From: Elusimicrobia bacterium GWA2_61_42
GTDB lineage: Bacteria; Elusimicrobiota; Elusimicrobia; Elusimicrobiales; UBA9959
Assembly: GCA_001799615.1 (NCBI GenBank)
Contig: MGTU01000025.1
Location: 1 to 64,000, forward strand
Length of the DNA: 64,000 bases
Direction: 5' to 3'
This document shows positions 31,746 through 41,160 of the stretch, piece after piece. Numbering within the stretch: the first letter of the stretch is position 1; every line of letters starts with the position of its first letter. The position numbers and the translations under genes were made by a program. The notes beneath the pieces were generated by a model. That model was not told the origin of the DNA. It saw only the letters and a list, made by a program, of their open reading frames with translations, and ran no database searches.

Positions 31746-32471
31746 TCAGTTCATGCCGGAATACTTGAGCTGGTAAGAGGTGAGCCTTATGGCTTCCTGG
31801 CGGTCCTCGGAAATTATCTGTTCGTAGACCAGGCCTACGCCGGGGGCGTAATAGCGCTCGGCCGCGCCGGAGTCGCCGCCGCCCAGCTTGGTGGTGATCT
31901 TCAGGCAGCCGTCGAAGGTGCCCGCGGGCACCGCGGCTTTGGCGTTAAGGGCGGCCACCCTGTTGCGGTCGGACCCTTCGTTCCAGACCTGGTTGTAGGC
32001 GAGGGGGAAGGGGATCTCGAGGCGGGGGCCCGAGAGGGGGGAATCGGAGGAGCGGATGCCGGCGGGGCCCGCGGTCACGACGAAGTTGGAGACCCGGGGT
32101 TTGGACCTGGCGGCGAAGATGATCATGTTGACCTTGACGCTGCGCTCGGCCTGGGAGTATTCCAGGTATTCCACGCGGACGGTCTTTACGCCGGTGAACT
32201 CGCTGGAGGTATATTCGTACTCGTACACGGCGCGCTGGTTGAGGGGCAGGTAGTCGGCGGCGGGGGTGTCGGAGGCCCTGTTGTCGCCCGAGATGCTGAC
32301 GGGGGGCGGGACGGTGAAGGGGGGCATGGTCTGCGAGGCCTTGAGGAAGGCTTCGGCCAGGGCGCTGTCGGTGCGGGCGAGGACGTTCTCAAGGGGGCCG
32401 GTCTGGGCGGCGGCGCACAGGGGGGCGAGGGTAAGGGATAGAAATAAGACCGAGTTTGCGAACTTTTTCAT
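31746..32471 (-). CDS. Secreted protein of unknown function
   Basis: A 241-residue protein with a signal peptide (MKKFANSVLFLSLTLAPLCAAAQ). The mature part is beta-rich, with strands such as RAVYEYEYTSSEFTG, VRVEYLEYSQAERSVKV and YAPGVGLVYEQII. It resembles periplasmic or lipoprotein-like domains in which a threonine-rich strand pattern precedes a GVGLV segment. No family is named with confidence. GGAGG lies 10 nt before the ATG. Upstream is an unusually long leader with a near-consensus promoter at 32666-32695. Confidence 0.75.
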   Translation of the reverse strand: MKKFANSVLFLSLTLAPLCAAAQTGPLENVLARTDSALAEAFLKASQTMPPFTVPPPVSISGDNRASDTPAADYLPLNQRAVYEYEYTSSEFTGVKTVRVEYLEYSQAERSVKVNMIIFAARSKPRVSNFVVTAGPAGIRSSDSPLSGPRLEIPFPLAYNQVWNEGSDRNRVAALNAKAAVPAGTFDGCLKITTKLGGGDSGAAERYYAPGVGLVYEQIISEDRQEAIRLTSYQLKYSGMN

Positions 32472-32659
32472 AGCAACAAGCCTCCGAAATATAATTTTCT
32501 GTTATATTTCCGATACTTTGTGCTAAGTTCCAATTTGGAGGGGGAAACTTAACGCGCTCGCCTGTTTTGGAGAGACATCACCGCTCGGGTAGTCTTTGGG
32601 CTTTTGGGATACCGTCGCGGCTTGTAGTACGGAACTGTCGGAACTGCTTCTCCCGACCT
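32472..32659 (-). ncRNA. Long structured leader or independent small RNA
   Basis: The transcript predicted from the promoter at 32666-32695 would run about 190 nt before the secreted-protein ATG without a coding frame. Visible structure includes GTCGG/CCGAC near its 5' end and a duplicated CAGTTCCG. There is a TTAAGTT / AACTTAG-type stem, and a perfect 9-bp hairpin GAAATATAA / TTATATTTC (32486-32510) directly before the GGAGG ribosome binding site. It matches no riboswitch, 6S, SRP or tmRNA pattern I recognise. It could be a regulatory leader or a free small RNA. Confidence 0.45.
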
Positions 32660-32695: not shown

Positions 32696-32744
32696 CGTTA
32701 TTCTGACGTTTAAGACTTTTGGGGTTTATAGCTTTGGGTTAAGA

Positions 32745-33214
32745 GCCGCAAGATGTGAAGTCGGGGTGGGCAGGGGGACCGGAACGCAAAACGCGTTCGG
32801 CCACACCGTGGCCTCACTCGGTATTCGCCTGCCGGGCTATGCAACCGGCAGGCAAGAAAGTGGAGCTACGCTCCACGCAACACGGTTTTGCTAACCCGGT
32901 CCCCCTGCCCACCCCTCCGTAGTAGTGGACGCTGGAACAGTTTCCTATGCTTTATGATTATGGCTTCGTGCTTGCGATAAACCGGAGGGGTGGCGTCAAA
33001 TAGCAGGAGGGGTGACGCGCGGACCGGCTTTCCGGGCCAGCCGCGTAAGGTGAACGGCAGGTTTACATCTCGCCAGCCTAGCAGGGGATGGGTGGAGCGG
33101 CTGGACCGGGAAGGCGGTTCGCACGGCAGGACCCCGAACTTGCAACGGCGCCACCCGACTGGACGTTTTGCGTTCCGGTCCCCCTGGCCGCCCTCGACTT
33201 CACATCCTTGCGGC
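32745..33214. mobile_element. MITE-like or structured-RNA element with ~48-bp terminal inverted repeats
   Basis: The left end (32745-32793) and right end (33164-33214) are inverted copies that differ by about two single-base indels and two mismatches. Inside, 32763-32782 pairs perfectly with 32896-32915. This outer stem extends through GCAAAAC / GGTTTTGC and encloses three hairpins: GGCCACACCGTGGCC, a 9-bp stem GCCTGCCGG / CCGGCAGGC (32828-32854) and GTGGAG / CTCCAC (about 32860-32876). A second stem pairs 32909-32919 with 32983-32993. No transposase or credible protein is encoded. It sits between the hydrogenase region and hypA. Confidence 0.7.
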
Positions 33215-33236
33215 ACGATACTCAAAGGTGATTTTG

Positions 33237-40991: not shown

Positions 40992-41043
40992 ACGGTGACA
41001 TCGGATTATTTACTTAGCCTGCCTGTTATTGCATAATATAACT

Positions 41044-41160
41044 GTAGCCGCAGAAGGAACGGGGTGCAAATCCCCGGCTGCCCCGCAACGGTGATGCCGC
41101 AAGGCTAAGCCCGGTCTACTGCGAACCCCCTGCCCGTATGAGGGGGAGTCCGAGGGGAAA
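41044..41160 (+). promoter_or_regulatory. Cobalamin riboswitch
   Basis: Conserved blocks appear in order: GGGGTGCAAATCCCC, then the B12-box segment GGCTGCCCCGCAACGGTGA, then AAGCCCGGTCTACTGCG and a CCCCCTG/AGGGGG hairpin. A promoter (TTACTT at 41010-41015, 16 bp, CATAAT at 41032-41037) precedes it. It controls the downstream btuFCD operon through the terminator at 41164-41192. Confidence 0.93.

Follow-up and report, generated by a model that had tools for sequence, protein, structure and literature searches.

The described systems nearest to the elements reported here are MITEs, REP-type palindromes, transposase-less cassettes and integron cassettes, each of which shares some features with them. 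MITEs such as ERIC, Correia/NEMIS, RUP and Nezha have in common with our elements that they are short, non-coding, intergenic and multicopy, with terminal inverted repeats and folding potential. REPs, BIMEs and REPINs, which go with RAYT, share the intergenic palindromes and the inverted dimers. Mobile insertion cassettes and TIMEs are derived from IS elements or Tn3, lack a transposase and carry inverted ends around passenger genes; cargo-less miniatures exist, and in both kinds the ends can be matched to those of a known IS or a Tn3 transposon. Integron gene cassettes with their attC sites resemble our elements in having folded sites conserved in structure and single small AT-rich ORFs. No dedicated transposase has been reported for CGTC-tagged REPs, each of which has one stem of 8-9 bp, closed by a loop of 4-5 nt, and an unpaired CGTC tag (Di Nocera et al., 2013; PMC3733652); Elusimicrobiota are not mentioned in that work. 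Mitochondrial repetitive or double-hairpin elements are presented, in the available part of the source, as potentially mobile hairpins whose mechanism is not established, and flanking duplications are reported there to be lacking for those of Allomyces (PMC2800124). Elusimicrobiota are mostly uncultivated, and none of the papers found on Elusimicrobi* and palindromic intergenic repeats appears, by title and abstract, to deal with the repeats presented below.

We analyzed a stretch of 64,000 nucleotides (hereafter the window) from the free-living Elusimicrobia bacterium GWA2_61_42, in which a sequence-only reading had singled out positions 32745-33214 as one 470-bp unit with inverted ends of 48-51 bp and about four differences between them. 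Alignment bears out the ends: 32745-32793 (49 nt) and the reverse complement of 33164-33214 (51 nt) are identical in 47 of 51 columns, the differences being two mismatches and two single-base gaps. The inverted similarity continues outward to 32732 and 33227 at 86%, and the natural limits, at about 32732-33228, are wider than the bounds first proposed. The longest perfect inverted repeat within the 470 bp is 23 nt, compared with a maximum of 11 in 60 dinucleotide shuffles, and the folding z-scores of the region are -11.7 (DNA) and -11.5 (RNA); not one of 100 shuffles was as stable. The element is intergenic, with a divergent gene for a 241-aa protein (31746-32471, minus strand) on one side and hypA (33249, plus strand) on the other. 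It comprises the following parts.

32732-33228, no strand assigned: whole element of 497 bp, bounded by the terminal-repeat HMM pair at 32732 and 33228
32732-32766, plus strand: left terminal inverted repeat, CTTTGGGTTAAGAGCCGCAAGATGTGAAGTCGGGG, matching 33164-33227 inversely at 86%
32763-32915, plus strand: head of module A, with complementary arms (32763-32782 and 32896-32915, 20/20) around a branched core; the genome has homologs at about 40 further places
32799-32813, plus strand: core hairpin 1, GGCCAC-ACC-GTGGCC, from the alignment of 101 non-redundant copies
32827-32853, plus strand: core hairpin 2, GCCTGCCGG-GCTATGCAA-CCGGCAGGC, with 9-bp arms, from the same alignment
32854-32880, plus strand: extra small hairpin, AAGAAA-GTGGAGC-TAC-GCTCCAC, recognized by comparing core lengths among copies
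32916-32984, no strand assigned: linker between the two heads, its ends complementary (CTCCG.../...CGGAG); homologous linker in L025, L029, L044 and L045
32985-33153, plus strand: module B, a separate dispersed repeat with copies lacking module A at L018, L022, L024 and L032
33164-33193, minus strand: truncated inverted head that keeps the 5' arm and the first 13 nt of the A core, fused there to module B; inverse match to 32764-32793 at 93%
33194-33228, minus strand: right terminal inverted repeat, from the terminal-repeat HMM

The long stem that had been proposed for the left half is a perfect pairing of 20 bp, and the three further hairpins described within it can all be seen in the sequence, at 32799-32813, 32827-32853 and 32860-32876, the last being the stem-loop GTGGAGC-TAC-GCTCCAC. 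The HMM of module A matches the window at 32781-32896. Among the 101 non-redundant copies, the stem base pairs of hairpin 1 covary and its ACC loop is almost constant; the stem of hairpin 2 likewise covaries, and the center of its loop, CTTATGCAAG-like, is conserved. The extra small hairpin is missing in most copies and sits elsewhere in some (L015, L040), and most copies have a core of 93-98 nt, whereas that of the window has 116 nt and the longest 129. As a separate observation, a hairpin of about 25 bp beginning CAAGAAAGTG occupies varied positions within heads (L015, L040, L100 and 32854-32880 in the window) and may itself be a still smaller mobile hairpin.

The terminal repeat, about 35 bp long with the pattern (CTTTGGGTTAA)xGGCCGCxxGAxGxxxAGTCGGGG, encloses the whole element, and its consensus was found at the ends of 15 elements of the family. 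Complete relatives follow one order of parts: terminal repeat, head, linker of about 75 bp, inverted head and inverted terminal repeat. The heads are branched, about 150 bp long, and also occur singly in intergenic DNA. Besides A there is a related type D, with the same two inner hairpins and other stem boxes, and a quite different type C. A second type of terminal repeat (GGGTGTCGCCA(A)TGCAAGTTCGGGG-like) was noted beside some A heads in genome G015 (L091, L096, L098), its end resembling the right end of module B.

Against this plan, the window copy is a degenerate member of the family, with module B in place of most of the right head. Among the ten cargo-less two-ended elements delimited by terminal-repeat HMM hits, nine measure 389-429 bp and that of the window measures 497 bp, because module B fills the place of the right head and leaves only 13 nt of its core. 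In relatives the place taken by module B is held by an inverted A, C or D head, and the inverted heads are complete at L026, L038 and L025. What had been taken for one 470-bp unit therefore includes, at 32985-33153, a dispersed repeat of its own. The two exclusive folds suggested earlier can indeed be drawn, the left arm pairing either with 32896-32915 or with 33175-33193, but the arrangement is not evidently a switch: the alternative arises because truncation of the right inverted head after 13 core nucleotides has cost its 5' arm its partner.

A search for copies, which the sequence-only reading had proposed, shows that the element is not a single occurrence. The window's genome (2.95 Mb, 34 contigs) yielded 84 blast matches at about 40 places, a census built from searches and retrieved stretches, and its exact cores are balanced between the strands (21 forward, 23 reverse). 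The exact core pattern is present in 28 of the 32 sampled species of the genus and in five further genomes of the same family, and absent from the other sampled Elusimicrobiota (341 genomes overall); the reversed pattern, used as a control, gave zero matches. The repeat is multicopy, non-coding and intergenic, with no copy flagged within a predicted gene. The matches listed among GTDB contigs were Elusimicrobia MAGs or MAGs titled just 'bacterium', and no copy was found in IMG/VR, phage records or plasmid records. The repeats are lineage-specific to one family of Elusimicrobiales.

Orthologous sites, which are 80-90% identical among the available genomes and do not allow single insertions to be read base by base, differ in both the presence and the content of elements. 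Upstream of hypA, the ortholog in G015 (L058) has no element, and other relatives carry different heads (L060, L062, L066 and, independently, L080 and L081). Empty orthologous sites likewise exist for L039, L040 and L043. At the L050 site, an outer stem common to three species holds A in G000, module C in G015 and a bare hairpin, GGGGCCGCCGGGGTAATACCCCGGCGGCCCC, in G003. The interior is of another subtype at L033/L100/L113, L043/L085 and L036/L107 and is inverted at L028/L118, with the arms altered in a compensating manner at these sites, and L045 reads A-linker-C versus C-linker-A in its ortholog L091.

Stem arms diverge between copies and remain self-complementary inside each of the 149 copies: the mean stem score is 12.3, compared with 5.15 +/- 0.14 SD (maximum 5.47) when arms are permuted among copies. 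For 37 same-genome pairs of copies with cores at least 98% identical, outer-arm identity has a median of 0.41, the level of unrelated pairs. Near-identical cores in unrelated arms imply that spread or conversion of the core does not depend on the arms. The head interior is exchanged between copies, the arms staying in place, and such module exchange could proceed without a dedicated enzyme, as ordinary gene conversion.

Strict insertion into the tips of pre-existing hairpins was considered in view of the identical cores in unrelated stems and of the bare hairpins L108 (at the L050 site) and L097 (at the L036 site). It was rejected: in some relatives the site is without a hairpin (L039, L043), and deletion could just as well have produced the bare ones. 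At L046 (1145-1937), a module C unit that includes a probable acetyltransferase-like ORF is flanked on both sides by a partial duplication (about 25-30 bp) of a terminator-like hairpin region; this flanking repeat could be a long duplication produced by insertion.

Some elements carry genes. Single ORFs lie between inverted heads in G016 at L015, L052, L053, L054, L261 and L268, with two in L055, and one ORF lies between paired terminal repeats in G015 (L089). In the window's genome, on contig C22, inverted A heads surround an AT-rich ORF of 103 aa whose match to HNH endonucleases stays below threshold (L036, 2089-2725), at a site downstream of a proton-pyrophosphatase gene. The GC content of the cargo is 39-44%, compared with 57-61% for the loci in which it resides. 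None of the nine cargo ORFs tested reached a Pfam gathering score or gave a PADLOC match, and the one cargo protein tested in all 32 genomes was found in its own only (1/32). Cargo differs at four orthologous sites. L052 (150-aa ORF) corresponds to cargo-less L035, and L268 (188-aa ORF) to cargo-less L269; the first cassette of L055 (89-aa ORF) has cargo-less counterparts at L019 and L219; and L053 carries a 196-aa ORF where L036 has the HNH-like ORF and L221 an ORF6N-domain gene with a second ORF. These differences are compatible both with capture by a dedicated enzyme and with homologous recombination through the heads. The elements would represent an unrecognized entry route for AT-rich genes without assigned function. 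Furthermore, orthologous sites present a natural series of bare hairpin, single head, two-headed element and element with gene, and with such a series the spread of transposase-less palindromes, including CGTC REPs and mitochondrial hairpins, which has long been an open question, becomes testable.

In an intact element, a branched head (A, C or D) thus lies just inside each of the two inverted terminal repeats, and the heads are separated either by a linker of about 75 bp or by a single AT-rich gene. The family is real and abundant, and it is unusual in its shape-conserved stems, its in-place module exchange and its foreign-gene cassettes. We consider it probable that its members are non-autonomous, hairpin-ended mobile DNA elements and cassettes that are served by a trans-acting enzyme and swap modules via shared heads. 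The elements would have inserted and spread as DNA, and the enzyme acting in trans would recognize their folded ends, as single strand or cruciform. Ectopic recombination or gene conversion through shared heads would then exchange modules at resident sites, and entire gene cassettes as well. We favor, as a hypothesis, a role of the heads as recombination ends. A bolder proposal, of which we are doubtful, is a distinct gene-cassette system in which branched DNA hairpins serve as shape-recognized recombination ends, single foreign genes being captured between two inverted heads and exchanged at resident sites with neither an integron integrase nor a classical transposon.

The MITE-like nature suggested by the sequence-only reading agrees with the copies, the inverted ends, the size class, the empty site and the missing transposase, but the target-site duplications that it expected did not rise above chance: in 15 elements the mean longest direct repeat was 4.87 nt, versus 4.89 nt after permutation. 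As had been noted, no transposase is encoded inside; the elements contain just small cargo ORFs, mostly without Pfam families. Pairing of ends in five genomes revealed no autonomous copy of greater length with a transposase, nor was any transposase or integrase found in association with the elements. The elements differ from MITEs in that no target-site duplication (15 elements) or parental transposase (five genomes scanned) was found, and also in their branched nested heads, whose arms vary freely yet stay self-complementary, in the exchange of modules in place and in their cargo versions. From mobile insertion cassettes and TIMEs they differ in that no parental transposon was found, phage and plasmid records giving no match, and in that their ends are long hairpin heads. 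Mitochondrial double-hairpin elements are much smaller. They are also organellar and, in the available part of their description, without described cargo genes (PMC2800124), in contrast to the cargo versions seen here.

The lack of duplications, combined with recognition of folded ends, would suit an HUH-type enzyme or recombination of folded single strands. It also suits the view that these are old, now immobile intergenic repeats whose similarity is due solely to gene conversion and to replication-driven correction of palindromes, as do the failure of our searches to find an enzyme, the identical cores in unrelated arms and the persisting complementarity of the arms. However, the element-free sites in relatives and the species-specific cargo require past insertion or cassette replacement, and we consider this view unlikely.

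Mobilization of the kind seen in REP/REPIN-type palindromes, by RAYT (HUH, Y1) transposases, would agree with the intergenic palindromes, the frequent inverted dimers and the absence of target-site duplication, and Y1 transposases occur in 27 of the 32 genomes. Yet none of 20 Y1 loci examined has module A, B, C or D or a terminal repeat nearby, and the head-bearing genomes G015 and G003, both incomplete, have no Y1 match. Moreover, the heads are branched structures of about 150 bp rather than single hairpins of 20-40 bp, and they have no GTAG tag. We regard mobilization by RAYT as improbable. Part of the head copies carry conserved motifs, GYCA and CGTC, at the base of the stem. CGTC stands at a fixed right-arm position in 49 of 149 head copies, where it lies inside the stem (median 16 pairs in 20); in contrast to CGTC REPs, the heads are thus branched, at about 150 bp, and hold CGTC within a long stem rather than as an unpaired tag.

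The sequence-only reading had offered a large structured noncoding RNA as its other possibility, and a cis-regulatory 3' or 5' UTR element would be of the same kind. Folding is very stable, the position is intergenic and often right behind a stop codon, and the covariation looked for in the proposed stems is abundant. The pairs themselves tell against RNA. Consensus structure cells of the 101 non-redundant copies comprise 3279 Watson-Crick pairs, 34 G.T and 77 A.C, so that G.T makes up 1.0% and A.C about 2%, whereas 23 of 343 pairs (6.7%) are G.T in the tRNA stems of these loci, a one-sided control in that the tRNA finder selects for pairing, which leaves the low G.T level of the heads unaffected. 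An RNA evolving via wobble intermediates is expected to show more G.T than A.C, and the heads show the reverse. A transcript of the opposite strand, which would fit the excess of A.C over G.T, is improbable, the A.C cells also amounting to only 2%. Relative to neighboring genes, 18 heads are co-directional with both, 16 are opposed to both, and 8 and 3 are mixed. Given the near-exclusive Watson-Crick pairing and the lack of a strong orientation bias, our findings point to a DNA structure rather than an RNA: what the stems conserve is complementarity, not sequence, at the DNA level. The interior inverted at L028/L118 also speaks against RNA, and Rfam at gathering and relaxed thresholds gave nothing relevant for the element, in keeping with the earlier remark that it matched no recognized RNA class. 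An RNA function is accordingly very improbable. A fixed-strand 3'-UTR function, considered separately, was ruled out by the orientation counts. Least probable of all are integron-like cassettes, with the heads as attC-like folded sites for a tyrosine recombinase and the AT-rich ORFs as cassettes, since, for all the conservation of structure rather than sequence and the single small foreign ORFs without assigned function that differ at the same site, no integron integrase exceeds the curated TIGR02249 cut-off in any of the 32 genomes (0/32) and the heads are dispersed over many contigs as facing inverted pairs, not as direct head-to-tail arrays.

Two other features of the window were also recorded. 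Upstream of the 241-aa gene, a leader of about 165 nt (32472-32640, minus strand) is conserved in three other species with a few compensatory changes; it has no Rfam match and is possibly an undescribed cis-regulatory RNA. Farther along, at 41006-41140 on the plus strand, lies a cobalamin riboswitch (Rfam RF00174, 34.7 bits).
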